DNA from: Prorocentrum cordatum
Lineage: Eukaryota; Sar; Dinophyceae; Prorocentrales; Prorocentraceae
Direction of reading: 5' to 3'
Length of the DNA: 64,000 nucleotides
NCBI GenBank assembly: GCA_963575745.1
Contig: CAUYUJ010018327.1
Span: forward strand, 1-64,000
Below are positions 33,751 through 55,093 of this stretch, in pieces. The notes beneath the pieces were generated by a model that saw only the letters and a list, made by a program, of their open reading frames with translations, did not search any database and was not told the origin of the DNA. The stretch's first letter is position 1. Every line of letters begins with the position of its first letter. The position numbers and the translations under genes were made by a program.

Positions 33751-33754
33751 TGCA

Positions 33755-33952
33755 CTTGCCAACCAGTCAACCCAACGAGCCCGACCAGCCAATCAACCAG
33801 CCAACCAGCCCGACCAATCAACCAACCAACCAGCCAACCAACCAGCCAACCAACCAGCCAACCAGCCAACCAGCCCAACCAGCCAACCAACCAACCAGCC
33901 AATCAACCACCAACCAGCCAATCAATCAACCAACCAACCAGCCCAACCAACT
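33755..33952. repeat. (AACCAACCAGCC)n minisatellite
   Basis: Units of CCAACCAGCCAA and CCAACCAATCAA. The same repeat occurs at 43740-43860, 44580-44612, 45000-45110, 45385-45510 and 45900-45930, in each case immediately before a copy of the sequence that starts ACATCTTCGTCCAACTG or its relative. Confidence 0.95.
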
Positions 33953-34144
33953 TTGCGCGGGACACCTGCTGGAGGGCAGTTTAGGTCACCCGTCCAACTT
34001 TTGCGCGGGACACCTGCTGGAGGGCAGTTTAGGTCACCCGTCCAACTTTTGCGCGGGACACCTGCTGGAGGGCAGTTTAGGTCACCCGTCCAACTTTTGC
34101 GCGGGACACCTGCTGGAGGGCAGTTTAGGTCACCCTAGGTCCAG
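33953..34144 (+). repeat. 48-bp tandem repeat, four near-identical units
   Basis: TTGCGCGGGACACCTGCTGG followed by AGGGCAGTTTAGGTCACCCG recurs every 48 bp at 33953, 34001, 34049 and 34097. It corresponds to the first ~50 bp of the ~370-bp repeat at 43.86-45.97 kb (ACACAGGGCACCTGCTGGAG, GGCGGTTTAGGTCGCC), here amplified alone. The high identity implies recent amplification. Confidence 0.95.
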
Positions 34145-34164
34145 GCGTGCGATGGGCGAAACCC

Positions 34165-35214
34165 GAGAGAATTATTCACTGAGTGGAGCTCCCCGTATGT
34201 GCATTCATTAGCATGGACCCGCCAGCCGCGAGCGTCTAGGCGCAAGAATGTTCGAGTATACATTGGCTGGAGTACGGTCTGGGAGGGAATCTAATTGTGA
34301 ATGGGTTGGAGTGTGAATGAGTTTCAGTAGTATCAGGTCTCTGCACCTGAGCTTGGGGTTTCCTGGGGCCTCTTGAAACCTCTTGGGGCTTCCTGTAGCC
34401 TCCTGGGGTCTCGTGTGGCCTCTGGGGGCCTCCTGGAGCCTCCTAGGGCATCCTGGGGAGGATTCGTGCCCCAGGAGAGGCCCAACCTGCAGGAACAGAG
34501 GTACATAAAACATGGCGGGTTGGAGCCACAGGCGAAAGGTAATATATCGGAACACACGTAAACCATCAAGGAATTGTGTTGTAGGGGAGGTTGAGTTTGT
34601 AGGAACATACGTACAACACTGTACAACACTTAGGAGTGGATGCGCAGGAATAGGGCATTCTATATAAACATACGCACAGCACTTCGGATTCGTGCTCCAG
34701 GGGGGGGGGGGGGGGGCAATCTATAGGAGCACGCGTACAGCACATGGGATTGGAGCCACTCCTGTGGCCTTCTGGGGCCTCCTACTCCTGGGGGCTCGTG
34801 GGGTTTCTGGTTTCCTGGAACCTCTTGGAGCCCCTTAGGGCCTCCTGGGGTCTCCTGTGGTCCTCTGGGGGTTCCTGTGGTCGTTTGTGGCCTTGTGGTG
34901 CATCCTGGAGCCTGCTGGAGCATCCTGTGGCAGCCTAGCAGGATCCGTGGCCTCATGTGGCCAGCACAATAAGCAAGCCGCTCGACACATCCTTAAGATC
35001 TGGCACCCCTGGGGTGCGAAAGCCAGCGCCTCGCTCGAGATATCCTCAAGATCTGCTGCGAAAGCGGACGATGTTGGGCATGCAACCAGGCACATTATTC
35101 GATACATCCCCGCCATCTAGGCGCGAACGGGAGAGTGAGGTACCCCCTGGGAGCTCCCCCTTGGGGGTGTTGAAACCCGCGCTTCGCTCGATACATTCTC
35201 AGACTTTGCTCCGC

Positions 35215-35300
<86 letters not shown>

Positions 35301-35310
35301 TCATCACCAT
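34165..35310 (+). repeat. Composite repeat, copy 1 (partner of the intron at 50.1-51.1 kb)
   Basis: Ordered parts: a leader with ATTCACTGAGTGGAGCTCCC, CGTATGTGCATT and AGCATGGACCCGCC (34165-34290); blocks of CTCCTGGGGCCTCCTGGAGC units (34360-34460 and 34760-34940); modules around CGCTCGAGATATCCTCAAGA (34980-35200); then a (CAT)n(CAG)n microsatellite (35215-35310). The same parts in the same order make up 50120-50945. A homopolymer G run sits at 34700-34715. Confidence 0.8.
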
Positions 35311-35464
35311 CACCATGACCGTCACAATCAGCATCAGCATCATCAGCATCATCGCCACCACCACCATGGCATAACAGAGCATAACGTAGCATACCATAAC
35401 GTACCGCAACCTAACATATTTCGCTTGGGCCTTTGAGAGGCCTGGACAGAGGTCCGCTAGCCAG

Positions 35465-35640
35465 TAACTCCAGTAACTCCTCCTCCACCTCCTCCTCCTC
35501 CTCCTACCTCCTCCTCCTCCTCCTCCTCCTCCTCCTCCTCCTCCTCCTACCTCCTCCTCCTCGGTCCCCTCATCATCCTCCTCCCCCTCCTCATCCGCCC
35601 TCTCCTTTTCCTCCTCCTCATCATCTTCCTCCTAACTACT
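35465..35640. repeat. (CTC)n pyrimidine tract
   Basis: Runs of CTC triplets with short interruptions, next to the 3' end of the following minus-strand gene. 35641-35750 is the presumed 3' flank of that gene. Confidence 0.9.
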
Positions 35641-35750
35641 CCTCCCAAGAAGTCCCCAGGGCCCCAGGAAGACCAAGATCCCAAGCGTCCCAAGTGGCCC
35701 CCTAGGATGATCGACTCTCCGTTCGCACCACACCCTGAGGCACGATTCAC

Positions 35751-38144
35751 TCACGATTGATCTGACAACGGCGCCGCCGCTGCCGCCGCCGGCTGCAAGC
35801 TCTGGCTGACCGCCTCAGCCGTGTTCTTCGCCTCCCCCTCTGGGTACAACTGCCCCCACCCCTTGACCTGCTCGCAGACGTCCTGGGGCAGGCCCTGGAG
35901 GAAGCTGAGCCTCAAGCCGTGGCACGGATCCTTCGTGATCTCCCAGACGAGGTAGTGGGGCGGCATCACCAGCAACGAATTCTCAACGGCATTGGTGCCC
36001 ACCAGGAACGGCTTCATCTTGCCGAGGTCGTCTTCGGAAATCTCCTTGAGGGCCCAGGTCTGCAGGCTCGCGGCGTTGATGTCGTCAACCTTCGTGCTGG
36101 CATGATCCTTCGCGAAAGCCAGGAGCTCGCCACACGGCGCGGCGATGACCATCCTTTCGCCACCAACCTGGAAACGGGCCGTCGGCAAACAGTTGAAGTC
36201 TGGCCCGAAGGTGTTCTGCTTCCCAGCCACGCCGTACATCGAGACTCCCATCTTCGCGGCCAATCCCGATGACACTTCCTTTGGGGCAACTGGGAGATGC
36301 TCGAATAATTTGTTGATCGCGCCAGCGATGTCCTCCTTGCCGTTGCACTTCAGCTTGCAGTGCGCTCGCCCAGATACCTTCACTGGGGTTGAAGACAAAT
36401 ACCCCTGCTTGAAGATGTCGAGGTTCGTCTTAACTTCGGCCCCATTCGCGCTCACAATGAACTCCATGATCGAGCTGCACTTCTTCACGATGAACGGCTT
36501 GGTGAGGTCGGGCTTGTCACTGAGAGCATCGGCGTCGGACTCGTATGCGTGCATCGGCTGCGCGTAGCTAAAGCCCTTCTCGAACATGGCGCCCGCGTCC
36601 TGCTTCGCGGCCGGCTGCTGCTGCTGCTGCTGCTTGGCAGCCGTCTTGGCAGCCGTCCTTATCTTCTTCTGTTCGTCTCTCGCTTTCTGTCTTTCCTCAG
36701 CTTTCTTCCTAGCCTCTTCCGCCTTTTGCGCCTTCTTCTTCTGGGTCTCGCGATCCTTCATGGCGGCCTTCAGCTCAGCGGATGCAGCGGCGAGAGACGA
36801 TGCCAGCTCAGTGTATGCGGCTTCGATGTCATTGAGCTGCAACTCCATCTGTTTGAGCTCATCTGGTGCCTTGGCCGTCTTCAACTCCAGAATCTTCGCG
36901 TGGAAAACTCGCAGCGTCACTAACTTCTCTGGGGATCCGCACGGCTTATGCTCCATCGAGGAGAGGGCATCCCTCATGCGCTGGACGGTGTCGTCGAGGT
37001 CCGGCGGGGCTGGCGGCGAATCAGGCACATCCTCCCCGTAGCCCTCGATCACGATGTTCGCCAAGCTCAGCCTCTCTCGAACAACGGCCTTGTATTCCTC
37101 TGCGTCAGTCGCGTCCTTAAGTTCTTCCACATCTGCCACTGTCCTGGTAACCGCATGCTTCAGCGAGGGCTGCACCTTGAACACCAGCGCACTTTTCCAA
37201 GAGTCGTGGGCTCGCAAGCGGATGAGCGACAAGTCGCCCTTCTTGCTGTCGCTACCCTGTCCCCCACTGGCGCCGCCGCCGCCCCCCGCCGAGCCGCTGG
37301 GCGTAGCCTTGGGGGCAGTCTTGCGCTTCACAGGGGTCCTGAGGTCGCCGTCGTCGTCATCGGAAGCCTGGCCGTCGGTGGGAGCTGCCCTCTTACCAGC
37401 ACTGGAAGACGCAGCCCCGTTCTTCTCCGCGTAGAGCTTGAAACCCTCGTCGGTGTCGACCGCCATGTCCCCGCTCTTCGCCTCCTTGCTGACCCGCTCG
37501 GCTCGATGGCCACCCTTGGTCTCTTTAAACTCGTTGATGAAGGTCTTCACCCTGACTCGAACCCTCTCTGGATACTTCTTGTTGTCACCGTCCAAGTCGT
37601 AGTCAGTGGTGCCCTTGTACTTCTTCACAGCCTCGTTCCACTTTTCGGTGATCTCCTGCGGGGTGAACTTCTTTTTCAAGTAGAACTCTTCGTGTTCGAA
37701 GAGGTCCATCATTTGGCTCTCATCGCCCGCCTGACTCACATCGGACTTCTCCATGATCTCAACCAGTCGGGCAACCTTGTAGATTGGTCGGGTCTTACCA
37801 CGCCCGCGCGAAGCACACGTCAACTTGTAGTCGTTCAGCATTTTCCTGAAGATCACGGGATTCTTCAAGCCATCTTCGTACTTATCCAGCCACCCGTTGA
37901 TCTGCGCATCTTTTTTCATGGCATCCATCTCGCGCTTGTCGTCGTGGCAGACCGGGTTGTTGCCGCAGCATGCCCTCTCGGGGTCCAAGCAGATGAAGCA
38001 CACCTTCTTGGCCGCCTTGGCACTGGGAGCGGCGCCGCTGCCGCGGCGGCTGGCGGCAGATCCCTTGCCTCTCTTCCCGCCAGGCGCACCCTCGGGAGGA
38101 AGAGCCGCCTCCTCCGCCTCGAAGTCCATGGCACCTTCTGCCAT
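35751..38144 (-). CDS. Unknown 797-aa protein with Cys/His cluster and coiled coil
   Basis: One uninterrupted frame of 797 codons from ATG at 38144 to TGA at 35751. Residues 1-47 are acidic then Gly/Ser/Lys-rich. Cysteines 49, 52, 59, 60, 66 with His67 (CFICLDPERACCGNNPVCH) form a likely zinc-binding cluster. Residues 80-210 are a charged helical region (GWLDKYEDGLKNPVIFRKML). An Asp- and Gly-rich linker follows, then about residues 420-510 form a Lys/Glu/Ala/Gln-rich coiled coil ending in a run of six Gln. The last ~270 residues (from PDLTKPFIVKKCSS) look globular. I do not recognise the family; it could be a chromatin or element-encoded nucleic-acid-binding protein. It lies 541 bp downstream of the methyltransferase-like gene on the same strand. 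The intact long frame argues for a functional or recent gene. The absence of introns is unusual beside its neighbours and may mean retroposition. Confidence 0.75.
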   Translation of the reverse strand: MAEGAMDFEAEEAALPPEGAPGGKRGKGSAASRRGSGAAPSAKAAKKVCFICLDPERACCGNNPVCHDDKREMDAMKKDAQINGWLDKYEDGLKNPVIFRKMLNDYKLTCASRGRGKTRPIYKVARLVEIMEKSDVSQAGDESQMMDLFEHEEFYLKKKFTPQEITEKWNEAVKKYKGTTDYDLDGDNKKYPERVRVRVKTFINEFKETKGGHRAERVSKEAKSGDMAVDTDEGFKLYAEKNGAASSSAGKRAAPTDGQASDDDDGDLRTPVKRKTAPKATPSGSAGGGGGASGGQGSDSKKGDLSLIRLRAHDSWKSALVFKVQPSLKHAVTRTVADVEELKDATDAEEYKAVVRERLSLANIVIEGYGEDVPDSPPAPPDLDDTVQRMRDALSSMEHKPCGSPEKLVTLRVFHAKILELKTAKAPDELKQMELQLNDIEAAYTELASSLAAASAELKAAMKDRETQKKKAQKAEEARKKAEERQKARDEQKKIRTAAKTAAKQQQQQQPAAKQDAGAMFEKGFSYAQPMHAYESDADALSDKPDLTKPFIVKKCSSIMEFIVSANGAEVKTNLDIFKQGYLSSTPVKVSGRAHCKLKCNGKEDIAGAINKLFEHLPVAPKEVSSGLAAKMGVSMYGVAGKQNTFGPDFNCLPTARFQVGGERMVIAAPCGELLAFAKDHASTKVDDINAASLQTWALKEISEDDLGKMKPFLVGTNAVENSLLVMPPHYLVWEITKDPCHGLRLSFLQGLPQDVCEQVKGWGQLYPEGEAKNTAEAVSQSLQPAAAAAAPLSDQS

Positions 38145-38685
38145 GGTGGTGGCTTTCGATGGTCCTTATGCCCAACTGCTTGCCTGAGTAATTACGGCTA
38201 TGGGGCCAATGTTTGATTTGGGCAATGTTTGATCATGATTTGGGCAATGTTTGACTTGGGCCATGGGTTTCATTGGAGCAATGCGTGATCTAGGCACTTT
38301 GATGCCATGCATTATCTACATTGCTGTTGCCGCCCTCGGAGGAGGGAGGGCGAGATGGGAGAGAGGGGCGAGCGGCAGGACGTCTTGCGATGAGGAACCC
38401 TTGATGGGGAACGACGTCCCTCCCTTGGAGGCCCCAGCTGAGACCATATGTACGTTTCTACGTTCCCTACGAGGGGGGCTCGAGGATCTTGGAAACTTCT
38501 CCGATACCAAATTGGCCCTTATTCCAACGTTTTTTTATCTCTGGAAGGCGGAGGGGATTTCAACGGGAAGCGGTCTCTGACCGAAAGAATCGAAGCGTTC
38601 GGGCACAGGGCTCGGGCAGATGCGGGCCGCGAGGCAGCTGCAGGCTAGATGGCCACCACAAGGCCTATCACTGATCACCCGTACT
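38145..38685. other. Spacer between two minus-strand genes
   Basis: Contains direct repeats of TTTGGGCAATGTTTGA (38205-38260) and a weak spliced-leader-like segment at 38183-38203 (minus), 39 nt upstream of the ATG of the 797-codon gene. No gene. Confidence 0.5.
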
Positions 38686-40581
38686 CTAGTCGCTGTCACT
38701 GCCATCGATATCGTCGCCCGCCTCCGCGCCGGCGCTCGCGATGAAGGCGTCCTCGGGATACCAAATAGTAGGGAGAACCTCCTGGCCCCCTGTGACCTCC
38801 GAGACTTCAATGTCGTCGCCCTGGCCCTCTGCGACCTCGGAGACCTCAATGTCGTCGGCCTGGCCCTGCGTGACCTCAGAAACCTCGATGTCGTGGTCGC
38901 TCTGCTCGGACGCATCGCAACTCAAAGAAGAATTCACCCTGCGGTAATCCAAGCTCAAGGTGCTACGCTGGACCGCCCGGCTCAGCACGTACCCGACCAC
39001 TTCGCCCGGGCATTGGGCATGCATGGCCAGGCCAGCTAGCTTCCTGATGTCGCTGGTCGAAATCACGTTCATCTTCAAAAGGTCGGGCCAGTTGCAGTCA
39101 GGCTGGTCGTCGCAAAGAAAAGGAAACGCTGGAATCCCTTGCATGACGAGGTGCTCCGCAGCAATAGCTGTCCGCTGTAAGCCGCTGTGGTACATGATCG
39201 AACCGTGCAGCAGCGGAGGCACGAACGGGCCAGGGCAGGAAAACCCAAGTTCCTGGTTGATGTCTGCCACGACGCCTGGGCCATACTGGCGTTCAGCATC
39301 ACTGACCTGCTCATTCGCGCGACGGCTCTGACTTGGTGTCAGCAACTTCAGGGAGTCGTACCTCGAAGACTCATCCATGGGCACCTTGCTCTTCTGCTTC
39401 GCGATCTCCGACCACTCGGCCTGCTGTTGCGCGTCTGGGGCGCAGAAAAGATCCTCGGACTTCATCACGACCTTCTTGCTGTACAGCAGCTCGAACTCTT
39501 CTGGCGACCCCAACCACTCGAAGACGTCTTTCCGCAGCATGGCTGTGTACTTCCTCGGCCGTCGCACTGGCAGGCCGAACGTCCACGGCGAAACCCTGAA
39601 GACGGCAATGGTGTACCTGCCGAGCGCCCCCCTCCAACGAGAACGTATGGGAAGATGAGAGGGAGAGAGGGATATCTATATATATATATATATCTATGTA
39701 TACATGTATGGAGGGCACGTGTCCTTGAAGAAGTACTCTAGTATGCCCTCTGGGTGCAACTCGGTGATCTCGTGGATGACAACGAGCGGCCTGGTGCGAA
39801 GGATGCTCAAACACCACATGAGGAAGGTCGCGAAGTTGTCGTGGGACGTCTTGGCACCTGAGCCCATGAACGCAAATGCGTAACACTCGGTACCCGAAAC
39901 ATGGATGGTGAGCGGCTCCGTGAAATCGTCATTCGGGAAATGCTGCACGAACGGTGGCGCTGCGTGGCCTGTCTGGATGTCCTTCATGACGCGGTCGTCT
40001 GGCAAGACCCTCTCCATGTTGGTCTTCATGAACTCCCACATGTCCTCGAACTTTTTGCGCCGCTGCGGCGGCTCCATCTTGTCGTCTGGCATCATCCTGT
40101 TGATCTCAGCTGCGACGTCCGGCGGGATCTGCTCCATGATGTCATTGAAGATGTGCGCCGCCCCAGTGCGATAGCCAGCGCTCAAGGCGATCTGGGCGGA
40201 AGGCGAAGGGTCCACCGAACACCATATTTTAGGATGCGTTGGTGGGCACATGTCGTGAAAGGCGCCAAGAGCAAGGCAAATGGACCGCTCACCATTGCCT
40301 GTCCCAGAATGATCAGAGAACACGATAACGCCTTTACGCAAATTGTTCCTCAGGCACATCACTCTAGCGTGACAGTCAACTGAGTCGGGGTTGGTTGTGT
40401 CGTCAGCGAACTGATAGTGCCACTTGAACGCATCTCGTAACGATGAGGGACCTGCTGGAAGATGATCCCGAGCTTCTGTGAAACCATGGCTGCCAGGATG
40501 CGCTTGCCCTGGCACTGCATTGCGCCGACCCTTCAGATTCAATGGGTCGGTCGCTCCCGACTCCAAGGTACGTTTGCCCAT
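38686..40581 (-). CDS. C5-cytosine DNA methyltransferase-like protein (597 aa, two exons)
   Basis: Joining 40581-39719 to 39616-38686 gives 1794 nt, 598 codons including stop. Motifs in order: VFSDHSGTGNGERS (87-100), the SAM-binding motif I; VSGTECYAFAFMG (228-240), with Cys233 in the place of the catalytic Cys of motif IV; HEITELHP (270-277), keeping the Glu of the ENV motif; and VSPWTFGLPVRRPRKYTAM (296-314), motif VIII. Splicing joins ..EYFFKDT to YTIAVF.. in frame, as this family requires. The C-terminus has three copies of an acidic DIEVSEV repeat. C5-methyltransferases add methyl to cytosine in DNA, and dinoflagellates have many, some inside mobile elements. The Pro before the Cys and the Asn-Val of ENV are not conserved, so activity is uncertain. 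The start at 40581 is the first ATG after a poorly conserved stretch; an ATG at 40671 is possible. Confidence 0.65.
39617..39718 (-). other. 102-bp GT-AG intron in the methyltransferase-like gene
   Basis: On the minus strand the intron starts GTGCCCTCC at 39718 and ends CGGCAG at 39617, with a (TA)n microsatellite inside. Removing it keeps one frame and restores the conserved stretch before SPWTFGLPV. Read through, the frame stops 8 codons into the intron (CPPYMYT). Confidence 0.8.
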
Positions 40582-41540
40582 GAAGCCCCGCCGCTGGGCG
40601 GCAGCAGGGAAGCTCAACTTGCAAAAAATCACTCGACACAGTGATGAGCTTCGGAAAGGGAAAGGCAGCATCCAAACGAGTGTGGCAAGCGGTAAGGGGA
40701 GTTTGTGTGTTTCCAGCAGACTCACTCATACTCAGGCTCACCCTCAAACTCGCCCATCCATGGACTCACTCGCATTCAGACCAATTCGTTCGCTCTCACT
40801 CACAATCGAACTCCTTATCAATCAGACTCTTTTTGTTTTATCGCCTGCTTTGCCACGATGGCTGCATGACTGGGCCTGCCGAACACAAATATTCGGGTAC
40901 ACTCTTACTACACGTCTAAGAATACGGGTACATATATCAAGATCGCACGTGCAAAAGACTAGGGAGGCCCCACATGTTAGTTAAGATTCGGTTTTGTTTC
41001 TGTGGGGCAGAAGAACGCACACTTCCCACGGCGGGTGGAAACAACGATCACACGTGCAGAAGACTGTCATACCCAGACTCTGTCATACCCAGACTCAATC
41101 ATACCCTTTCTCTGGCATCCTTACCAATCAGACTCGACCATACGCAGACTCGATCACCATCATCTCGAGCATCAATCAATCAGACCCAATCTGCCTTGGA
41201 GGACCACCTTTGAAAACAGGCGTGCGTGTACGTATATACATACCCGAATGCGTATACATGTTTTACCTTCGTGCGTGTCATGTTTCACATACATATATAC
41301 CTACATGCATACATACACACATACATACATACACATACATACATGCATGCACGTGCATATACATACACACATATATGCGTGTATACACATATGGATATGA
41401 ATGTACATGCACGTATTCATATACATATGCATCGACATACACATATAATATCCATATACATGCACATATACATAGACATGCGCAAACACATACATTGTTG
41501 TTCCTGCCCCACTCTCTCCGACCGCGCCGCTGACATAATG
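40582..41540. repeat. CTCACTCA-type spacer and (ACAT)n microsatellite
   Basis: 40690-41200 is unique to mildly repetitive (ACTCATACTCAGGCTCACCC; TCATACCCAGACTCTG twice). 41225-41490 is a long (ACAT)n/(CATA)n run. Tyr/Met/Val-rich or His/Thr-rich frames are by-products. Confidence 0.8.
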
Positions 41541-41544
41541 CAAA

Positions 41545-41762
41545 CACCTAGCTGTTCATACCCGACAGCTCCGCTGACGGGAAAAACACACCTAGCTGTT
41601 TATAACCGACAGTTCCGCTGACGGAAAGCAAGCATCTAGCTGTTTATACCCGACAACTCCGATGACGGGAAACAACAAGCACCTAGCTGTTTATACCCGA
41701 CAGCTCCGCTGATGGAAAGCAAGCATCTAGTTGTTTATACCCGAAAACTCGGAGTTGTCGGG
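41545..41762. repeat. ~45-bp tandem repeat, five units
   Basis: Units begin ACCTAGCTGTTTATACCCGA and continue CAGCTCCGCTGACGGGAAA, spaced 42-47 bp. They are followed by another (CATA)n run (41770-41930). Confidence 0.9.
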
Positions 41763-41929
41763 TACATGCGCAAACACATACATGCATGCATGCATGCATA
41801 CATACATACATACGTGTATACATACAACCATACATGTGTACACACCAACACACAACCATACACACATACACACACATACACACATACACACACATACAGA
41901 CATACATACATACATACATACATACTAGG

Positions 41930-42417
41930 CTAGAACGGCCCCATTCTAGGCTAGAACCGCCCCTTTCTAGGCTAGAACGGCCGAACGGCCCCGTTCTAGG
42001 CTACAACGGCCCCGTTCTAGGCTACAACGGCCCCGTTCTAGGCTAGAACGGCGCCGTTCTAGCCTAGAGCGGGGCCGTTCGGGGCCGTTCTAGTCTAGAG
42101 CGGGGCCGTGCTAACGAGACGGCCTGTGCATGAAAACCCGCCAGTAGGGGGGGGGGGGGGCAAGTTCAGCCCGCATGAGGGCTAATATACACCCGCTGGC
42201 TGCTCGAGATAAACCCGAACGGGCCTACTGAGATAAACCCGAACGGGCCTGAGATAAACCCGAACGGGCCTGAGATAAATCCGCGGGGGCCGAAGATAAA
42301 CGATAAACCAACTGGCGGCCTAAGATAAGCCCGAGCGGACCTCAGATAAACCGATACACCCACGGGGGCCTGATATATACATGTATATGTACACATACGT
42401 ACATACATACATACACA

Positions 42418-42449
<32 letters not shown>

Positions 42450-42510
42450 CATATATACATACATACATACATACATACATACATACATACATACACACAT
42501 GTTTGAAGGG
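41930..42510. repeat. CTAGGCTAGAACGGCC and GATAAACCCGAACGGGCCT repeats, (CATA)n
   Basis: 41932-42115: units of TTCTAGGCTAGAACGGCCCC, which is partly palindromic and reverses orientation at about 42058 (GTTCTAGCCTAGAGCGG). 42190-42360: about seven units of GAGATAAACCCGAACGGGCCT type. 42370-42500: (CATA)n. A run of about ten G lies at 42150. Confidence 0.9.
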
Positions 42511-43735
42511 TGCCATATCATTTTGAGCAGCCATACTAAAAATAGGCTGGATGAGACCTCCAGGTGGGGGCTGAGAGCCTCTTGGGGCATGATCGGGGCT
42601 CGGGGCGGTGGATTCGGAGACTCCCAGAGCCGCACTCACCAACCAAGAGGCCCCAGGGAACCCCAGTCAGGTATAATGGCACCCAGGAACCCAGGCAGGT
42701 AACAATGGTCTGCAGGGAACCCCAGTCAGGCACAATGGCGTCGGCAGAGTCGAAGGCTACTGATGAGCACCCTTGGGATGCTCTGGACTCGTGTGCCGTC
42801 TCAGGCTGGCCTGAAACAGCCCGCACCACGCGCGTAAGGTTGTCTAGGAAATCTTTGTCGAGACGGCCCATGTGGGCTGCAGCAGCACTGTTAGTGCTTG
42901 CAACTGCTGGAGATTCTGATCCCGAACCTACGTGGCTGAGGCAGCGGCTGAGGAACAGTTTTTTGCGACGATTTAGGCCATCATCTTGGGGTTTGAACGG
43001 GATTGAGTGGATTCTGGGTTTTCAACCAGGACTTTGGCCGTCATCCGGGGATTTGGGCCGTCAGCCGGCGATTTGGGCTGCAGCCGGGGATTTGGACCTT
43101 CAGCCGGGAATTTGGACTGTCAGCCGGGGATTCTGGTGATCCTGGAGGAATCAGCTTCCAACCTCCGGGTCATTCGGGTCATTCGGGTCATTCGGGCGAT
43201 TTCGGTCCCGAAATGGGGCCCCATTCGGGTCATTCGGGCGTCGCCCGAAACTTCGCTCGATACATTCGCTTGGAGTTTCGGGTCATTCGGGTCATTCGGG
43301 CGCCCCAGTGGACGTCGCCCGAAACCCCCCGAAACCCCCCGAAGGTTGGGGCCCGCCCGAAACTTCGAGGCCATTTTGTCCAGACGCGCCCAATTTCCCC
43401 GGCGCGAAGCCCGTTTCCTCCCGATGCGCCCAGTTTTCCCGGCGCGAAGCCCGTTTTGTTTGGATGCGCCAAGTTCTCCGGCGAACGCGCCCAAATATCC
43501 TGATCTGACTTTTTGGCTTGGAAAACCACGAAGAGACGTCCCGAGCTTTCGAAACTTTGCAGACGCCACCCAAAAAACCCAAAACCATCTTTTCAAGCAG
43601 CGCTCAGACAGAAAGGCCCAAGAGCGCACAGAAGGAGCCGCAGGGGCCCAAAGAGGCCCTTCCTCCCAAGTGGGCCCCTGAGACAACCTCCAGGGGCCTC
43701 CCGAGGTATGGATCTGCGATGCTGGGGCCTGCCAT
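42511..43735. repeat. Mixed short tandem repeats, no supported gene
   Basis: GGGAACCCCAGTCAGGTAYAATGG recurs three times (42655-42740). CAGCCGGGGATTTGGRC units occur at 43030-43140, GGTCATTCG 9-10-bp units at 43165-43300, and a ~50-bp unit with GGCGCGAAGCCCGTTTT at 43395-43470. Frames such as 43007-43681 are open only because of these repeats. 42720-42990 is the most unique part. Confidence 0.7.
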
Positions 43736-43739
43736 CCAA

Positions 43740-45970
43740 TCAACCTGCCAACCAATCAACCGAACCAGCCAACCAACTAGCCAACCATTCAACCAACCAG
43801 CCAGCCCAGCCAGCCAACCAATCAACCAACCAACCAGCCCGACCAGCCAACCAACCAGCCAAATGGGGGCACATCTTCGTCCAACTGTTACACAGGGCGC
43901 CTGCTGGAGGGCGGCCTAGGTCGCCTTAGGTCCAGACGTGCAAAGGGCGAAGCCCGATGGATTCGCACAAGAACGCCAGCAGAAGTCAATCCATCCAAGT
44001 CCGAACGTGGCGGAACTCGACGAACAGTCGAGATCAAAAATGAGAGGCATAATGAAGTCAAAGTGCGTTAATTCATGGAAGTTGCCAGGGAATAGCACGT
44101 CAACTCTGTCTCAGGATATACACCTTGTATATGTTTTTTTATGTATATGAATGGATGAATGTGAACTTGAATTTGGACATGCGCATGTAGATGCATGCGC
44201 AGGTGCTCCTGCCAACCAATACCAAACCATGGGGCACATCTTCGTCCAACTGACACAGGGCGCCTACTTGAGGGCGGTTTCGGTCGCCTCAGGTCCAGAC
44301 GTGCAACGGGCGAAGCCCGATGGATTCGCACAAAAATGCAAGCAGAAGTCAATCCATCCAAGTCCGAACGAGGCCAAACTCGACGCACAGTCGAGAAAAA
44401 AATGAGAGGCACAATGAAGTCAACGTACGTCAATCCACCGACGTTGCCAGAGAACAACACGTCAACTCTGGTTCGGGATATACTCATGTAAAATGTATAT
44501 GTTCGGACATATGTATATGAATGACTATATTTAAGTTTGAAGTTAGATATGTATATGTAGATGCATGTGCAGGTGTACCTGCCAACCACTACCAAACAAT
44601 CCAACCAACCAGCCAAACAGGGGCACATCTTCGTCCAACTGTTACACAGGGCGCCTGTTGGAGGGCGGCTTAGGTCGCCTTAGGTCCAGAGGTGCAAAGG
44701 GCGAAGCCCGATGGATTCGCACAAGAATGCAAGTAGAAATCAATCCATCCAAGTCCGAACGAGGCCAAACTCGACGCACAGTCGAGAAAAAAATGAGAGT
44801 CATAATGAAGTCAAAGTGCGTTTATTCATCGAAGTTGCCAGAGAATAGCACGTCAATTCTGCCGCGGGGTGTACATGTTAACATGTGTATACGTATCTGT
44901 ATGTATATATATATATATATATATGTAAATGAATGGGTGGGAACTTGACTTCGGATATGCATATGCACATGTATGTGCATGTGCACCTGCCAGGCAATGC
45001 CAAACCAGCCAACCAACCTGCCCAACCAATCAGCCAACCAACCAACCAGCTCGACCAGCCAACCAATCAACCGACCAACCAACTTGACCAGCCAACCAAC
45101 CAGCCACATGAAGGCACATCTTCGTCCATGTGTTACACAGGGCACCTGTCGGAGGGTGGTTTAGGTCGCCTTAGGTCCAGACGTGCAAAGGGCGAAGCCC
45201 GACGGATTCGCTGCAAAGCCAATGCAATTCAATGTATCCTCCTCTTCTCCCGTCCTCCTCATCCCCCTCCTCCTCCCCCTCCTCCTCCTAGCTCTGCTGC
45301 CGCCCAGCTGCAGCCGCTCCTGCGCTGCGCGCCCTTGTTCTCAATGGGGCCTCCCAGGGTGCGGATCTCCGCGGCTGGGGCCTGCCAATCAACCAACCAA
45401 CTTGCCAATCAACCAATCAAACTAGCCAACCATTCAACCAACCAGCCAGCCCAGCCAGCCAACCAATCAACCAACCAACCAGCCCGACCAGCCAACCAAC
45501 CAGCCACATTGGGGCACATCTTCGTCCAACTGTTACACAGGGCACCTGCTGGCACCTGTTGGAGGGCGGTTTCGGTCGCCTCAGGTCCAGAGGTGCAAAG
45601 GGCGAAGCCCGATGTATTCGCACAAGAACGCCAGCAGAAGTCAATCCATCCAAGTCAGTCCGAACGAGGCCAAACTCGACGCACAGTCGAGAAAAAAATG
45701 AGAGGCATAATGAATTCAAAGTGCGTTAATTCATCGAAGTTGCCAGATAATTGCACGCCAGCTCTGTCCCAGGATATACACATTGTATATGTTCTTTTAT
45801 ATATATATATATATATAGATACCTTTATTTATGAATGGATGAATGTGAGCTTGAATTTGGACATGCGCATGTAGATGCATGCGCAGGTGCACCTGCCAAC
45901 CAATACCAAACCAGCCAACCAACCAGCCAAATGAAGGCACATCTTCGTCCAACTGTTACACAGGGCACCT
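43740..45970. repeat. Array of ~370-bp repeats with (AACCAACCAGCC)n spacers
   Basis: Copies begin with GGGGCACATCTTCGTCCAAC at about 43864, 44230, 44619, 45112, 45512 and 45934. Complete copies continue through GGTCCAGACGTGCAAAGGGC, CAATCCATCCAAGTCCGAAC, GAGAGGCATAATGAAGTCAA, a (TA)n, and ATGCGCAGGTGCACCTGCCA, followed by the AACCAACC spacer. Copies at 45112 and 45934 are truncated, the last ending about 14 bp from the stop codon of the transposase-like gene. The 45112 copy is replaced by pyrimidine-rich DNA (45230-45380). The unit's first part is the 48-bp repeat at 33.95 kb. Confidence 0.9.
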
Positions 45971-45983
45971 TGTCATTGCATTG

Positions 45984-48900
45984 TCAGTCGGAACTGGAGC
46001 TGGACGTGCCTGAGGTGTCTGAGGACGAGCTGGGCTCCTTGGCCCTGCCCGCCTTCGCCTTGGCCGCTTTGGCCTTGGCCTTGGCCGCTGGAGGCTTTGC
46101 TTTCGCGGCTGGCGCTGCTGGCGGAGCAAGAGGGGCAGGGGCGGCAGCGTCGGCGACTCCCATGGCGTGAGCCTCTGGCGGCCCCTCGTACTCGTCGGGA
46201 AGGTTCTCCAACATGCCCTGCTCGATCTCCGCGATCTCTGGCATGTCCTCAACTGAAACAAAGTCTTTCATGTGATCTGCTTTGCTTCTATTGCGAGTGG
46301 CCCAGTTGCACCAACAACGAATTCGCCAGAGTGCGATCTGTTCATCAGCTTCATCCTCGAACTGGAATGTCAATGTCTTGGTGCACTTGATGCGTACATT
46401 GTGCGGCTTAAAGGGGCAGGTTGCCTGCCATGATGGATTGACAAAGTGGCCCTTCTTATTGATGGTCTCGGGGCGGTAGGTGATCCTGAAGGCCCCCCAC
46501 TCGTGCGTCTTGGCGTGATATTCCTCGCAAGGGCGAGGAGGCCGTCGCGGCGCCTTCGCCGCCGGCGGCGCTGGCGGGGGGTCGTCGTCGCCGTCCGCGG
46601 CGTCCTCGGAGTCCTCTTCGCGGTCGTCGTCTCCATACTCACCATGTTCATCGGAATCGTGACCATGGGCATCGCCGCCATCAGCGTTCTCCCACTCGGA
46701 AGCTGCGTCGTCATTGGGTACTAATCCAACGTCTTCGGGTAGTGCAGCTCGACCGACGTCCATGAGAGCAGGGCGCATCTTGCGACGCCGCTGTACGTCC
46801 CCCACTTCGGCCTCGAATTTAAGCGGCAGCATTGTTAACGTGTCTGGCGTTTTCTTTCCATCTATTACTGAGATCACATCAGCGTAGTAGGCGACTGGCT
46901 TGTTGTGGGCGATAGATTTGACACCGAGGTCGACCAGCTTTGCGCGGTTCTCCTCGACCCCCACAAGTGCTCGCAAATACGAAGCCATTATCGTGACGCA
47001 GTGCGGGCGGAAATACCATGTCTTGTGCAAAGGAGGGCCGTCCTTGTTCATCTCGTCATCGTCGGGTATAGCAATACTCAGGGGAGGAGGAGCCCTCGCT
47101 CCTTTTTGCCAGGGCAGTGCAACCCATCCACGATTCCCTAAGTAATCCATAAGTTCCCAATGTGTCCATTCTCCCCTGTCCTCCAGCATTCGATGGGTAA
47201 GAACGTTTTCCTCTCCCGACAAACGAATCTCCACCTGCATAGTGGACATGCCAACGTCCGTAAATTGCCATCGTGCGTCGCCGTCGTCACCCACTGCTTG
47301 TCGCGTGACGTACCCGAGACGATCCCAATCTTGAAGAACCAATTCTTGATGCTCTTGATGTGCAGCGCCCCGCTTCAGCAGATAGTACTGGCCAGATCCA
47401 TGGTAGGCCCTGTTCTTCAGCATCTCTTTCACAACCAGCTCAGCGTGTTCGCGAGAATCCTCGGCCATCACTGGGAGCGTGTAAGAGGGTTCCTCTTTTG
47501 AGAGCTTCCAGACAGCAGCGTCGAACAAACTGTCGTTGACAATCGCGAGTGCACCTGCTAGGGGGCCACATGCGAACCCCACCCCTACCCCCACGATTTC
47601 TGAGGGGAAGGGTGGGGTTCACTTCGTTCGGGAGCTCCCGAGCGAAGTGAACCCCACCCTCCCCCTTAGAAATCGCCGGGTGTTGGGGTAGGGTTTGCAT
47701 GTGGCCCCCTACCTGCCACGTCGCCCGCTGTGCTGTTGCATGGCCTGCCATTTGTCATCGCAAAGCAGTCGTCCCCATCCCAGCGCGTAATATCGAACAA
47801 TGTCACTGCGACGTCGGAGCGCCCCAAGTGAGCAACGGTGTCCCCCCTCGCTCGCTTCAGGAGCGCAGGATAGAAATGCTGCACTTTGAACAGAATTACT
47901 CCAGTAGGGATGTCATCGATCTTCGGCGGGCCGACTCCGAAAGGCACGATAAGCTGCCCAGCATCCGATAGCCTTGCCCGGCCGTCAATGTCGCCTTTCT
48001 CGTAATCCAAGATCTGTCCACACGCGACTAATGTAGTGCGGTCTTGGCCTATGGCCTCAGATAATCGTCGAAATGGAGACTCGCCTACATAGTCAACGGG
48101 CAATGCCGCAAGAAGCCACTCCTGTCGATCGAGTGTAGTGCGGACATGTTCCAGAGCAGCCGCCTGCAACACATTCGACTCGGATTCCCGCGGCCTGCCC
48201 ACTGGCGCGGGCCTGCTTGGCGGCGCGCCACCTCCCAAGCTCGCCAATTTCAGGTCGGCGAATTGCGATGTGGAGTCAAGCCTGTAAACGACGCTGTCAA
48301 GTAGAGGATGCGGTATCTCTCCCGTCGCGTACTCCTCGAAAGCAGCGTGGCGACGCAGTCCTAAATGCGTGGCAACCCAGTGAGGCGATCTGCACTTTTC
48401 GATATTGTTGACAATGCCCATCACCATGTCTGGATCATTGTCAAAGAGCTTGAACATCTCTGGGATCCTGAGCGCCTGGCTTACGTAAGCTCCACTATGG
48501 TGGCGGGCCTTACTCGTGGCTTTCTGAACCAGCGCATGGAGGCCTTCGACGCTCCGCTCGATGATGGGGACCAAAGCCAAGCCGCACAACTGCGACCGAA
48601 GTTCCACGAGCTGAGGATCATCTAAAGAAGTGCCAGCGGCAAACAACTCCAGTAATTCCCGCAACCGAGACCCATGCTCCAAGAATTTGCGAGTCACATA
48701 GTGCGTCTCGCGGTCGGCCACGCGTGCATACAAACCCAGACAAGAGATGGCAGCTTCCCTGGCGATGGCCTCCTTCGCATGGGCTACCCCACCCAGCGCG
48801 TAAGGCAAGGTCGTCCAGAAGCCAAACTTCACAGCCATCATGAAATTTAAATGCCTGACGCCCTCTGCGAAGTCATCCTGGATTCGTGCGCGGGCAGCCG

Positions 48901-50664
48901 CGGATCTCAGTGGGGCAGTTATTTCAAGTAAGTTCATCCCGAACGTGTTCTGACACTCCTGCAAGAAAGTCGAAAGACAACCTTGAGCCATCTCAGGGGC
49001 ACGGCGGCCGCGCAGGGGGCAGTCGCACCTCACGCAAATATCAGGTACATCCCAATACAGGTCGCCGTCAGCGGATTCTGGACTAACGTGGCAAGGACAT
49101 CCCTGCACCCAATAGTTCAAGTGGTTCAAAGTAGTCATCAGCAAGCGGAGCATGCCCATGTAGCTCCACAGTTCTCCATTGGCTACAGCCTCTGCGAAAC
49201 TGTGTAGCTTGGATCCGAAAGACTCGCCGTCCTTTTCACCATTCTCGTCTGCCCGTGTCCCACCAGACGCCCGGTGCTGCAGAAACTGCCTCGTGTTCCA
49301 AAATCTGCGAATGCAGCGCTCTAGGGGCTCTATCTCTGCGATGAAATCCGAGACGCTCATCCATCTCCAGTGCAATAGTTTTGATTCGAAGGTTCTGAAC
49401 CGACAAGCAAACGGCCTCGACGCTGGCGAACTGAAACATGTTGCAACGAGCGCTTCTCTGAGATGTTTCTCCTTAAGGAAGTTCGCGAGAGCTTTCATGC
49501 CTGGTGTCATTCTTCCAAAATTTGTCATGCTCTCCGTGACATCCTTGGAGATGTTGTGGAGTATGTGGAGGCTCCCAGGAACTTGCAACGTGGGGGTCAA
49601 ATCAAACGTCAGCGGATTGATCGCTTCGTCGCCTGACTGGCCGTCGTCCCCCATCCCGTCGGGAATCCTGTCGCCAGCGTTGTCAGCCTCGAACTCGAGC
49701 TTCACGGCGTGAGGGCAGAGTACATCCAAGCGATGCTTCATCTTCCCGAGCCCAGCTTCAACGCCAAAGTCTGTGGTGAAGCTCAGAATGCGGCGAACCC
49801 AATGTTGCATGAAAGAACCGTTCAATAAAAATAATTGGTGCGCCAAGGCAGCGGCCTTATGAGTAGCATTTGTATTTCGATATCCGAGCCCCGCTGGAGG
49901 GGACCTCTCTGTCACGCGCGCCTCCTTCACCCTGTTCAACAGCTCACTCACGCGCTCGGCCATGGAGTCGGTGATGATCGCACTGTCCGACTCTTGTCTG
50001 AAAAAGTTGAGCGTGTCGATAAGTTCGCACATCGACGCGTGCAGGTCCGCCATGTCCCCGAACCAAATGTGCGACTCTGTCATCAACCAATCACGCCCGC
50101 CTTGCCAAACAAAGAAATGATTCACTGCGTGGAGATCCCCATATGTGCATCTACTAGCGTGGACCTGTCCGCCGTGAGTGTCCAGGCGCAAAAATTGTCG
50201 AATATTCACGGCCGTGGGTATTGACGGTCTGGGAGCATCTTGGAGCCTCCTGAGGCCTGGAGCTTCTGGGGGCCTCCTGGAGCATCCTGGGGCATACTGT
50301 GGCCTCTTGAATCTTGTTGTGGCCTCCTGGAACCTCCTGTTGCCTCCTGGAGCCTGCTGGAGCCTCCTGTGGCATCCTGGGGAGGATCCGTGCCCACCAG
50401 TCTGGCCACCAAAACAGGCAAACCGATCGAGACATCCTCAACTTCTGCTCCCGCTTGGGGGTGAAAACGAGCGCCTCGCTCGAGACATCCTCAGCATCTG
50501 CTCCGACCGCGGAGAATATTGAGCATGCCAACTGGCAAACCGCTCGAGACCCCCCCGCAATCTTGGCGCGAATGGAGGCCGTGAGATACCCTTGGCGGCC
50601 CCCCCTTAGGAGTGCTGAAGCCAGCGATCCGTTCGAGACATCCTCACAATATGGCCCCCTCTGG

Positions 50665-50709
<45 letters not shown>

Positions 50710-52356
50710 CCATCATCACCATCATCATCATCATCATCATCACCATCATCACCATCATCACCATCACCATCATCACCATCACCAGCATCATCATCATCGT
50801 CATCATATGTTCATCATCATCGCCATCACCATCGTCATCATCATTACCATCATCATCTTCCATGATCGTCATCATCATCAACATCATCAGCATTATCATC
50901 ATCAACACCATCAGCATCGTAACCATCATCATCGTAGTCTGAGCGGGGGAACGGACGCAACGAGGTGAAGTACCCGAACCCTCCACCCACCGTCTCTTTC
51001 CCCCCTCCGAGGCCCCCTCCACCCTCCCCATGCGAGCTCCACGGAGAAGAAGGGGGGAGGAGGGCATGGCAACCTCACAGCATTGCGTTGTTATTTCTCT
51101 CTGGTGCCTTGCGGCGAGCTGTCCGAGAGCATGAAAACCACGCAGTCGCACTCCATGAGAGGAAGGTGCATGCCCCGTTGTTTCAACATGTAAGCTGCGT
51201 CCACCATGATCCTCCACCTGGAAAGTTGCGACGCGTCTGGCACGGGCATACCCTCAACCATTTCCTCGAGTGACTTGGAGAGTTCGCGAGGAAAAAACGT
51301 TCGCACAGCCATCTTGAAAACCTTGTTCAAGTCCCTATCGTGCAAAAGCTGGCTGCATGTGAGGACTGAGTGCAGAACGAACCAACTGGTGAAGCGTCCA
51401 TGATGCTCGTCGACTCCAGCTGCCCCAACTCGAAGGTGACAAAGCCTGGCACGTTTGCCGCCCTTTTCCACTCTGTGTGCAAGCATATTCTGTTTCGAGA
51501 GCGTGTGCGAGCAACGAAGCGCCCACTGGCGGAAACGCTCGAGTTCGTCATGCGTCTCTTGGCGCTGCTCCAGGTCATCGCTGATGCCGTCTCTCGCAAC
51601 ATTGCCCAATGCATGTGCCAGTGCTTGAAATGCAGCTGAATTGAAGATTAACTCTTGGTCGCCATCTGGGCGGACGATGGTGCGTCGAAGTTTGCGCAAC
51701 GGCCGAAGTGGCTTAAGTTGATGGTCTGATCGGCGGCTCAAGCTGAAAGAAATCGAATCAATCAGACCACCCGCCACCATGTGCGCCAGAACAGGGGGTA
51801 AACTGCAAACAATCACTTCATCATGCTTCAACGTGCCATCAAAGATGCCGCACTGTCGCCAATTCCGTGCAACTTCGTCCATACTTTCACGGCACCTCTG
51901 TATAGTCACGTCACTCGGTTTGAACCAATTCCACCGCAGAACATGCAGGTCCAGGTCTGGAATTGCCACCACTCCTGTTCCAAAAGGTGCGGCAGCCAAT
52001 ACTTGCCAGTGTGCGCGCTGCCAGCTGGGACCCTCCAAATCAAACCACACGCTGTCCATGCCAACTGTATCATGATACTGGGCCGTCCTGCTCGGGTCCA
52101 AACGAAGTAGTGCCGCCCCAACTATCTTTGCAGACCCACTACCCTGCATAGCCTGGTGAATGTCGTCGGCGAAACCTGACAAGAGCGTGGATGAGCGGAG
52201 CCTTGTCCGCAAAAATTCCGCCGACGTGTTTGAAATACTGCCTATTGATCTCATTTGTGGCCCACAGCTTTCTGGAAGCGACCAGCGCACATGAGACCTA
52301 TCAGGACCTCGTCCCGTCCGGTGTCGGGTGCTGAGCAGCACGATGAAAGATTCCAT
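45984..52356 (-). CDS. Putative DDE-type transposase-like protein (~1735 aa, three exons)
   Basis: Exons on the minus strand: 52356-51108, 50100-47713 and 47554-45984; total 5208 nt, exactly 1736 codons with stop, one frame throughout. Exon 1 ends in CDCVVFMLSDSSPQ and exon 2 resumes GGRDWLMTESHIWF. Candidate catalytic residues of an RNase-H-fold transposase are Asp412 (SDSSPQ), Asp527 (SFTTDFGVEAGLG) and Glu931 or Glu935 (VPIIERSVEGLHALVQ). A SLHILHNI motif lies between the last two and a Cys-rich patch (GCPCHV..ICVRCDCP) near 750-780. Exon 3 carries an Asp/Glu-rich region and ends in a Ser-rich tail after Ala/Lys/Pro repeats. Intron 1 is a 1-kb composite repeat, intron 2 a 153-bp palindromic introner. 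The intact frame over 5.2 kb of coding DNA is strong evidence for a real gene. Superfamily not identified; the transposase role is inferred from residue pattern only. The start is the first ATG of the open frame. Confidence 0.7.
47554..47716 (-). mobile_element. Introner: palindromic insertion forming intron 2
   Basis: The element (47559-47711, 153 bp) is a near-perfect palindrome centred on GAGCTC at 47632-47637, with terminal inverted repeats TAGGGGGCCACATGC. It is flanked by a 5-bp direct repeat, GCAGG on the coding strand (47712-47716 and 47554-47558). The intron, 47712 down to 47555 (158 bp), begins GT with G from the repeat and T from the element, and ends CAG inside the second repeat. 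Splicing restores exactly the pre-insertion sequence GGCAGGTGCA and the frame GDVAG|ALAIVND. Confidence 0.92.
50101..51107 (-). other. 1007-bp intron 1 (GC-AG) made of composite repeat, copy 2
   Basis: On the coding strand the donor is CAAG|GCACC and the acceptor CAAG|GCGGG. GCAAGGC is directly repeated at the two junctions (51112-51106 and 50105-50099). GC-AG introns are common in dinoflagellates. The intron body, read on plus, is the leader GATTCACTGCGTGGAGATCC (50120), CTCCTGGAGCATCCTGGGGC units, CGCTCGAGACATCCTCAGCA modules (50410-50650), and a (CAT)n (50665-50940). This is the same order as at 34.2-35.3 kb. Joining the exons yields SDSSPQ|GGRDWL in one frame. Confidence 0.8.
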
Positions 52357-52739
52357 ATTGGGCCAAAACGGCTATTCAGACCGACTCCGCATGGCAAGAT
52401 TCACTATCACTTCCGCCGTTTCCGCCAACCTATTTCACTCACTCAGTTCCTGCACTTTCCGCTTGGCCTTCATCCGGCTTCCGCGGCCCTTCTGGAGTCC
52501 ATTCACATACGGAACGCGCGGAGTCCACGTTCTGGATACTCGCGCGGAAAGCCACTGGCCAGCGCGTCCGTCCACGTTGGGCCAAGCTCTGGAAGGACAT
52601 GCGGCCACATAGTTATCCAGCTCTCGTCCACTTCCCTGCCTTGGGACGGCCACACCATAAGGGCCCACGTCTCTTTTTATGCTTCGTGTGGAGTGCTCAT
52701 ACTGTTATCTTACGTTGTCTCCCTCTCTTTCTGTCTCTT

Positions 52740-52772
<33 letters not shown>

Positions 52773-52790
52773 AGAGAACACTTAAAAGGC
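52357..52790. other. 5' flank of the transposase-like gene and (TC)n
   Basis: Directly before the ATG at 52356, the minus strand reads TAGCCGTTTTGGCCCAA (52374-52358), which differs from the matching part of DinoSL at two bases. A (TC)n run is at 52741-52772. No other feature seen. Confidence 0.45.
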
Positions 52791-52901
52791 TTCTGAGGCC
52801 CCTTGGGGCCCCAACTTGGGGCTCCTGAGGCTCCTGAGGCTTCTCAGACGATCCTTAAGATCTTGGGGCCTTCTCAAGGATTTCAGCGAGTACTGCGGAT
52901 C

Positions 52902-52950
<49 letters not shown>

Positions 52951-53275
52951 CCACGGCCACGGCCGCGACGATGACGGCGACGACGGCGGCGACGGCGACG
53001 ACAATGACGATGGCGTCGGCGCTGACGGCGGCGGCGGCGACAACGAAGACCACGACGACGACGAACGGCGGCGGAGGAGGAGGAGGAGGAGGAGGAGGAG
53101 GGACGAGGAGGAGGAAGAGGAGAAGGAGGCCGAGGAGGAGGACAAGGAGGAGGAGGAGGAGGAGGAGGAGGAGGAGGAGGAGGAGGACGGCAAGGAGGAG
53201 GAGGAGGAGGCGGAGGAGGGGGAGGAGAAGGGAGGAGGAGGAAACGTCGGTAAAATTCTGGAAGTGGCCGTAGCG
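52790..53275. repeat. GGGGCCTTGAGGC repeats, (GAC)n and (GGA)n
   Basis: 52785-52885 contains CCTGAGGCTTCT/TTGGGGCTCC short repeats. 52905-53060 is (GAC)n with interruptions and 53065-53250 is (GGA)n. Homopolymeric frames in both directions are by-products. Confidence 0.9.
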
Positions 53276-55093
53276 GTGGCGACGGGGCCTGGACATGCTC
53301 TACGGCCCTAGTTTGTTCACGAACACGTTCGTTGGGGCCTCCCCCAGAGGGTTCCAGACCCAACACCTAAACGAAAACCCCTATTCGCAATTCAGCACTC
53401 GGACCCCTTCACTGTTCATTTGGATTCGCCCGAGCTTTGCTTCCGCGCGATCAGCTGCAACAGTTGGTCGACCATGGAGAAGCTACTGGCCAGCGCCCCT
53501 GCGCGTGTCATTCTGCGCCATGAGCACGGGTTTGGTTCAACAAAAAAGTGTTGACCAGGCTTCGGCCCGGGCTGCTAGGGGGGGTTGGGCGAGCCTTTGG
53601 ACCGGAGCTCTGGGCGCGGAGGCTGGCTCCACCTTCGGTCGCGCGCATTTTGGTCAGGGGTTGCTCAGGCCTGCATGGGCCCCCCGGGAGCGTCGGAGGT
53701 TGAAGCTGGACGTGCTGTCTCAGGTGCCACCCGCCCCCCTCGGGGGACTCGCTCTCTCGCCTGTGCTGCCAATCTGGATCATTCGGAAGGTCTGGCGGAG
53801 ACGAATGTTGATTTGTTGGCTAAGATTCGCGTCTGCTGTTCCTCCTCCTCCCCCCCCCTTCTGCATTGGTGCCTCAAGTTCTCGGTCGGCGTTAGTTTGT
53901 CGAGAAGCTCCCCGGCGTGCGCGTCGCTCCTGGTGAGTGTGCTCATTTCGGAGAAAGACCCTAGCACGTTGGACTATGTTTCCCCCCGTCCGAGGGGGGG
54001 GGGGGCTGGGGAAAGCTGTTATATCGCGTGAAGTGTTGCGCGACACCGTCCTGAGCCCTCGCGGGCCTGTCCAGGTGATCTTGCGTCCTTCTCCCGCTCG
54101 GTTCCAGCGCCCGCGGCGTTCGGTCCTGCCTCGAGCCTCTTCGCTGGCCCCGCCCTCGCGCTCGGGCTGGGCAGGCCGCGCAGTGCAAGGGGGGGCGACG
54201 CCGCGGGGAGCTTCTGCCCCCCTTGGCCCTTGCTGTGCTGATTGGGCTGGCGAGGCCGATGTGGAGCTTGCACCGCCGCTTGGAGCCGATCTCCTTGTCT
54301 TAGGCACGCGTTCCAAGGGGCCTCAACTTGCGTGGAATAGGCTCTGGGGCAGGAAATTACATATTCATGATCCTGATATTTGCGCGGCGCGTTGGCTTAG
54401 CTCCCGAGTCCGCGCCGTGGCTGCCTGGCGCGCTGCGAACCTTCGCCGGGGGATCTGGCTCAGGTGTTAGTTTAACTGCTGTGTACGGCACCATCATCAG
54501 TTGGGGTGACGGACGGACTTCGCCCACTTTTTGAAGACGCTGCTGGCTTTGCTCGCGGAGATCGCGCGCTTCGGGGCTCTTCGGGGCAGGCGCCGCGCGA
54601 CGAGTTGGATGCAGCCGCGGATCTCGCCGGCAATGCGGCGAGCAAGGGGGCCCGCAAGAGTTGGCGGGCTTGGATTCGCAATGGAGATCTATGAAAGGGG
54701 GCCAAGAGGGCGCATTTAGACATTAGGGGCCCTGCCGTGTCAAAGGAAAACATAGAAGGCTCGGCGGTCAGCTGCGATGGTTTCATCTGCCGCCGCTCTC
54801 AGCATGTATGCGATCCTGTCTTGGACGCCTGAGCCATGGTTTCGAAGTCGCGGAAGCGCTCAGCCAGCTGCCTAAGCAGATTTCGGCCGCTCGTTTAGCA
54901 CTGCTGTCCATGCCAGCTGGTGTCTATAGGCCGATGCGAGTGCTCTGCGCCTGGTGCAGAGTCTGGGGCAAGTGCCGTCTCTTCTTAGCTTTGCTCTGGG
55001 AGAATGAACACTCCCGTCGGTGTTGGGCTGCCGGGGCGCGCGGGGGGGCCTCGGATGTCGCGCGGGGGCGAAGCGTCAAGGCCGAACACGGGA

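Follow-up and report, generated by a model that had tools for sequence, protein, structure and literature searches.

A 153-bp foldback MITE interrupts the coding sequence of a large DNA transposon in Prorocentrum cordatum, and because its duplicated landing site supplies splice signals the insert can probably be excised like an ordinary intron. We examined this element within a 64,000-nt stretch of the P. cordatum genome (hereafter the window). Our main reading, to which we assign a probability of roughly 80%, is that the MITE landed in a GCAGG of the large transposon's coding sequence and that splice sites derived from the duplication let the spliceosome take out 158 nt, restoring the message. 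The MITE would have inserted at CAG/G (the slash marks the splice joint) within the host coding sequence, duplicating GCAGG; the upstream GCAGG would retain its ...CAG and lend its G to the T at the element's edge, forming the donor CAG/GT, and the downstream GCAGG would serve as a ready CAG/G acceptor behind the C-rich end of the element; removal of the intervening 158 nt by the spliceosome would then exactly restore the old message. The features concerned, in window coordinates, are these:

47559..47711, no strand assigned: 153-bp foldback MITE (fold, repeat and frame analysis).
47559..47573, plus strand: terminal inverted repeat TAGGGGGCCACATGC, one end.
47697..47711, minus strand: terminal inverted repeat, other end.
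47554..47558, minus strand: target duplication copy GCAGG, downstream in the gene; acceptor CAG/G, exon restart at 47554 (present once at the empty site in two paralogues).
47712..47716, minus strand: target duplication copy GCAGG, upstream in the gene; ...CAG/ plus the donor G.
47555..47712, minus strand: predicted 158-nt GT-AG intron (frame restoration; same geometry in the annotated sister copy L007).
47713..50437, minus strand: host frame upstream of the intron (50437 is the stop-to-stop limit, the true exon start being inside it; homologues).
45984..47554, minus strand: host frame downstream of the intron (frame; homologues).
51091..52371, minus strand: probable earlier exon of the host gene (homologue P0005 has both parts in one protein; exact joint presumptive).
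32953..53397, no strand assigned: 20.4-kb (20,445-bp) DNA transposon holding the host gene, with 18-nt inverted ends TGCTGAATTGCGAATAGG.
32945..32952, no strand assigned: 8-bp target duplication CTCGGACC, left.
53398..53405, no strand assigned: 8-bp target duplication CTCGGACC, right.

The interrupted gene is on the minus strand. The 15-nt ends of the window element are perfect inverted repeats; the palindrome as a whole is imperfect, and the window copy differs from the consensus of 35 sampled copies at 9 positions plus one gap. Forward-strand CCTGC (GCAGG on the minus strand) is found at 47554-47558 and 47712-47716, in agreement with the first-pass annotation, which had described a 153-bp palindrome with inverted ends between two GCAGG copies in a long frame and whose coordinates were confirmed. 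The same annotation had drawn the donor G from one GCAGG copy and its T from the element, and the acceptor CAG from the other copy, and this geometry is what the window contains: the donor reads CAG/GTAGGG, with the G (47712) from the duplication and the T (47711) from the element, and the acceptor reads TAGCAG/G, with the CAG (47557-47555) lying entirely inside the other duplication. With the insert kept, the host frame stops after 923 codons (stop to stop); removal of 47555-47712 yields the single continuous frame that had been anticipated, of 1,431 codons stop to stop, with a predicted spliced junction of GTGGCAG/GTGCAC. Both duplications would be cut at an identical position, so splicing would restore the old message at any element length. 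Annotation of the host protein in P. cordatum was absent from the protein-search matches; judged from its frame and homologues, the window copy itself is probably spliced. Two other candidate observations were set aside. A second copy in the window at 35690-35704 has one end only, with 2 mismatches (4 matches in total, compared with 2.84 expected by shuffling). The insert contained 0 of 50 variable sites (2.7 expected) and so appeared better conserved than its surroundings, yet 11.5% of stretches of equal length also contained none.

A competing explanation, which we consider unlikely, is that an ordinary MITE has broken its host gene: the GT-AG geometry would be coincidental, the RNA would retain the insert, and the transposon would be mobilised by protein made elsewhere. 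The predicted RNA fold speaks for this explanation. The 191-nt stretch around the element folded as one hairpin of -155.6 kcal/mol, versus a mean of -79.6 kcal/mol (sd 4.4) for 200 shuffles of the same stretch, which bears out the strong hairpin that had been expected within the intron; in the predicted structure the terminal stem contains both splice sites, the donor being paired to the acceptor region. So stable a hairpin could hide the splice sites from U1, and this is the main mechanical doubt.

The state of the locus before insertion was sought with the two flanks joined as query, and all eight candidates obtained were scored; five were filled copies and three (L056, L057 and L068) were without the insert. 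An empty site with a single GCAGG had been predicted, and it is present in two of these paralogues: L056 and L057 aligned across 382/382 columns with a single CCTGC, at 83% and 82% identity to the window, respectively. L068 (78%) is also collinear at the insertion point, with the site altered. L056 and L057 are identical to one another at 3,372/3,382 positions and, being nearly identical, may count as one event. Their frame runs without a stop and the junction reads TAGDVAGAL, identical to the predicted spliced product; dN/dS for L056/L057 against the window gene was 0.29 upstream and 0.37 downstream of the junction. A more distant homologue, P0005 (1,373 aa, ENA), aligned over 990 residues at 43% identity and was gapless at the junction. 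Processed, spliced copies of the host gene, which would have been proof of splicing, were absent from the eight candidates scored.

Evidence against a simple gene-breaking insertion comes from sister copy L007, where an element with the identical GCAGG duplication lies in a different gene (the SH3_3 match there is below Pfam's own cut-off). The public P. cordatum protein P0011 at this locus contains LERLRLAGVRVEQVCLVDRAYRR, the CAG/G product expected after exact excision of a 159-nt intron, and the gene is conserved: nine further proteins aligned to P0011 without an insertion at that joint (three of them, from Symbiodinium and Durusdinium, are named DnaJ; in five, an additional residue sits about seven positions upstream of the joint). 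As described in passages of Dougan et al. 2023 (PMC10666404), the P. cordatum annotation drew upon RNA-Seq assemblies via PASA, with GC and GA donors allowed, plus gene finders; P0011 is strong but indirect evidence of splicing at L007. The proposal that the element acts as a precisely removed intron gained its support here, from a sister copy excised as predicted in an annotated protein. On the predicted joints the reading frame is intact after splicing in the window copy and at L007, as it is in the empty-site paralogues.

The host gene had been taken to be transposon-derived, and it does sit in a 20.4-kb unit with inverted ends and 8-bp duplications, of which five close copies were found. 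The four copies beyond the window are 97-99% identical in the parts compared, with right ends within three bases of the same place; all four share these inverted ends, apart from a single mismatch at one end in one of them, and each is bounded by an 8-bp repeat of its own (CTTCAAAA, GTGCTCAT, CCCCCAAG, plus an uninformative G run). Related pieces (fragments on C4388 and C13231, and a diverged end on C11795) lie beyond the five copies scored for the insert. The MITE is at the same base in 5/5 close transposon copies found, on five contigs, a distribution most simply explained by at least four moves of the transposon with the MITE in it. The host protein had no Pfam family at the cut-offs used, and five other frames of the transposon were scanned with no Pfam match at E 0.01. 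The host homologues have in common the motifs D(S/T/A)SPQ-G(R/H)D, T-DFG(V/T)E-like and H-HN; judged by eye these point to a putative transposase, which we regard as a lead. The fuller history, that the MITE became an intron in a putative transposase gene and that the spliced, active transposon then carried the intron to at least four more sites, we hold at even odds; splicing would presumably have kept the host transposon mobile. Elsewhere in the window a retroelement lies nearby (RVT_1 reverse transcriptase domain, 15187-16272, E 2.9e-11), and there are other repeat clusters with inverted copies at 3669-4135 and 41925-42080 (CAGACCACACAGGAGCACGG units; TTCTAGGCTAGAACGG palindromes).

Comparison of the host copies bears both ways on the gene-breaking explanation. 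The four other copies showed 13 silent and 49 replacement changes against the window, summed with shared changes counted repeatedly, about as lack of constraint would give, and 3/4 carried small frameshifting indels within the 3.2 kb compared. This near-neutral drift and the indels would fit a broken gene; they also suggest that most host copies are decaying, which is usual after transposition and has no bearing on splicing in the copy that spread. Against the explanation, all five close host copies have the insert and none close was without it among the eight scored, so there is no obvious helper copy.

The P. cordatum assembly (4,128,499,153 bases in 21,875 contigs) was searched for further copies of the MITE in two ways. 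With the insert as query, the best 40 of 3,421 candidate places were scored (the similarity-ranked set); five, counting the window copy, were this insertion in near-identical host genes, and the remaining 35 were other insertions. With a two-ended pattern requiring both perfect 15-nt ends, 139 matches had an interior of 90-120 nt and 978 one of 121-150 nt, 1,117 in total, and the reversed control gave 0 genomic matches, in keeping with the expectation that the genome would hold other copies. A flank-blind sample of 35/1,117 matches was made up of the first 15 of one list and 20 of the first 21 of the other, leaving out one of two neighbouring look-alikes on C228. Exact duplications were of 5 bp in 21/35 and of 6 bp in 2/35; exact duplications of 3, 4, 7, 8 or 9 bp occurred in 0/35, and in the remaining 12/35 the repeat was imperfect or absent. 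When left flanks were set against right flanks from other copies, 1 of 1,190 pairings matched. The 35-copy consensus is a nearly perfect 154-bp palindrome, with a median divergence of 4.5%. On this sequence evidence the family is a non-autonomous foldback TIR DNA transposon (MITE) that ends in TAGGGGG...CCCCCTA and duplicates 5 bp of its target; its description as mobile, with inverted ends and duplication of the target, stood up in the sample.

GCAGG on both sides of a 131-160 nt interior between 10-nt ends was found at 24 genomic places, of which five are the host copies and 19 are others; GCAGG is over-represented in the similarity-ranked set because the query itself contained GCAGG. At L018, L070 and L072 the flanks are near inverted repeats of each other, so that the palindrome extends past the element ends and replaces the direct duplication. 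At L031 (around 1578-1731) the element is flanked by a 12-nt direct repeat with one mismatch, the commonest length being 5.

That the family might be a dedicated introner family, with copies that are mostly introns, is improbable, although clean introns would result from the window copy, from L007 and, as a GA-AG intron only, from L017. We asked Pfam about 134 frames at 50 other insertions, taking up to three frames of at least 80 codons beside each. Four of the 134 were flagged: TylF, Acyl_transf_3, SH3_3 and one SR-25, the source frame of the last not being among the 20/134 rescanned singly. The resulting three genes and one SR-25 match at 50 loci argue against such a family, the gene count being a lower bound because Pfam misses many dinoflagellate genes. 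Empty-site frame lengths were compared with a control having an upper quartile of 426 codons and a 90% mark of 659 codons. Similarity-ranked frames exceeded these in 7/35 and 2/35 cases, about the chance expectation, which also argues against; among flank-blind loci with 1.5-kb flanks, 6/15 exceeded the upper quartile (about 4 expected), a point in favour, and 2/15 the 90% mark. Several of the printed long flank-blind frames had low-complexity translations by eye and two others a very low apparent GC, which for the long frame at L043 is due to a run of N. Long open frames at other copies were set aside as evidence of genes, many being low-complexity in a GC-rich genome. By Pfam and frame lengths, enrichment in genes was not seen among the sampled loci.

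The duplications gave a similar picture. Splice-ready duplications (GT-AG with exact restoration, in either direction) made up 3/21 of the exact ones, versus 6.2% among random 5-mers from the flanks; with GC and GA donors added, both of which dinoflagellates employ according to passages of PMC11453091 (a further point for a dedicated family), they made up 5/21 versus 12.7%, and GNNNG duplications 4/21 versus 19.6%. The splice-ready ones are too few to call clearly enriched, and the duplications are diverse. The first-pass expectation that most copies would be exonic introns with GCAGG-like duplications did not hold. The scarcity of recognised genes beside sampled copies, together with the lack of clear enrichment, fits the gene-breaking explanation as well.

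Besides L007, two of the scanned copies lie in recognised genes and differ in what splicing could achieve. The L017 element (1620-1773) interrupts a TylF-type methyltransferase frame in a conserved stretch, GGVLIMDD here; without the insert the protein aligned ungapped to solved relatives at the insertion point. Its duplication is GAGGA, and exact removal is feasible only as a GA-AG intron. The sole empty-site candidate scored for L017 was the filled locus itself and was discarded. At unrelated loci, intron behaviour is indicated by an annotated protein at L007, and by frame and homology only in the window and at L017. The L043 element (1501-1634) lies in an acyltransferase-3 frame; read in the gene direction its duplication is CAATC, which offers no GT, GC or GA donor and no AG acceptor. 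The Pfam match stops 24 residues short of the joint, after which the scaffold enters N; by eye, the gene continues across the joint. Since this duplication has no splice sites, the copy would be expected to disrupt its gene, provided that gene is live, and to that extent L043 sides with the gene-breaking explanation. With few sampled copies beside a recognised gene, splice-ready duplications not clearly enriched and L043 without splice sites, we favor a foldback MITE that gives rise to an intron in some instances.

A real intron spliced at a different acceptor, the TAG made up of the TA of the element and the leading G of the duplication (ending at 47558, 3 nt earlier than CAG and also in frame), or at both acceptors alternately, would keep one extra codon and read VAAGAL in place of VAGAL, as this route always adds exactly 3 nt where a 5-bp duplication has the form GNNNG; we give it little credence, as sister copy L007 is annotated with the CAG/G product only and the TAG-acceptor product is absent from P0011.

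If the main reading holds, one genome displays the stages of intron birth: a donor family, a target duplication, an empty site, a filled site and an annotated spliced sister. The data suggest a borderline state, a MITE family without a clear link to genes in which an intron arises when a copy lands on CAG/G in the right direction; ordinary transposons are thought to turn into introners by way of such a step. If the spliced, active transposon did carry the intron to further sites, DNA transposons would be a second route by which introner-made introns spread together with their exons; with five copies of the host transposon, one can test whether a transposon interrupted in this way stays mobile through splicing.

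Introners of Micromonas pusilla and Aureococcus anophagefferens are reportedly short non-autonomous DNA transposons that carry one splice site, the target duplication supplying the other. The P. cordatum element is alike in being a short non-autonomous DNA transposon with a splice site from the target duplication; unlike them, it gives only the donor T, and most sampled copies are without a recognised gene. The kind of introner is already known, since introners that have inverted ends and duplications of 3-9 bp (Gozashti et al. 2022, PMC9860276) and introner elements in P. cordatum itself (Dougan et al. 2023, PMC10666404) are described in passages of those papers. The pattern used by Dougan et al. 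combines inverted repeats (8-20 nt) and direct repeats (3-5 nt) close to the ends of introns, and it should pick up the element wherever it is annotated as an intron; the main-text passages of that article describe no single family, target-duplication anatomy or transposon nesting. A literature search, extending to parts of the sources and not to Roy et al. 2023 on dinoflagellate introners, returned no description of this MITE family, nor of an introner spreading inside a transposon gene. In passages of Gozashti et al. (PMC9860276), enrichment of introners in genes is given for 161/175 genomes, Florenciella has cases in which the duplication or insertion site provides both splice sites in whole or in part, and the introners of Aureococcus include codon-adding cases. 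The present family resembles the families in those passages in its inverted ends, duplications and splice sites from the insertion site, and differs in being palindromic, with 5-bp duplications and with gene enrichment not seen in our sample. The introner elements of Amoebophrya, in passages of Farhat et al. 2021 (PMC7789003), are alike in their predicted hairpin, their inverted repeats (8-20 nt) and the direct repeats (3-5 nt) that mark their boundaries; those elements were defined among non-canonical introns, whereas the window element is GT-AG.
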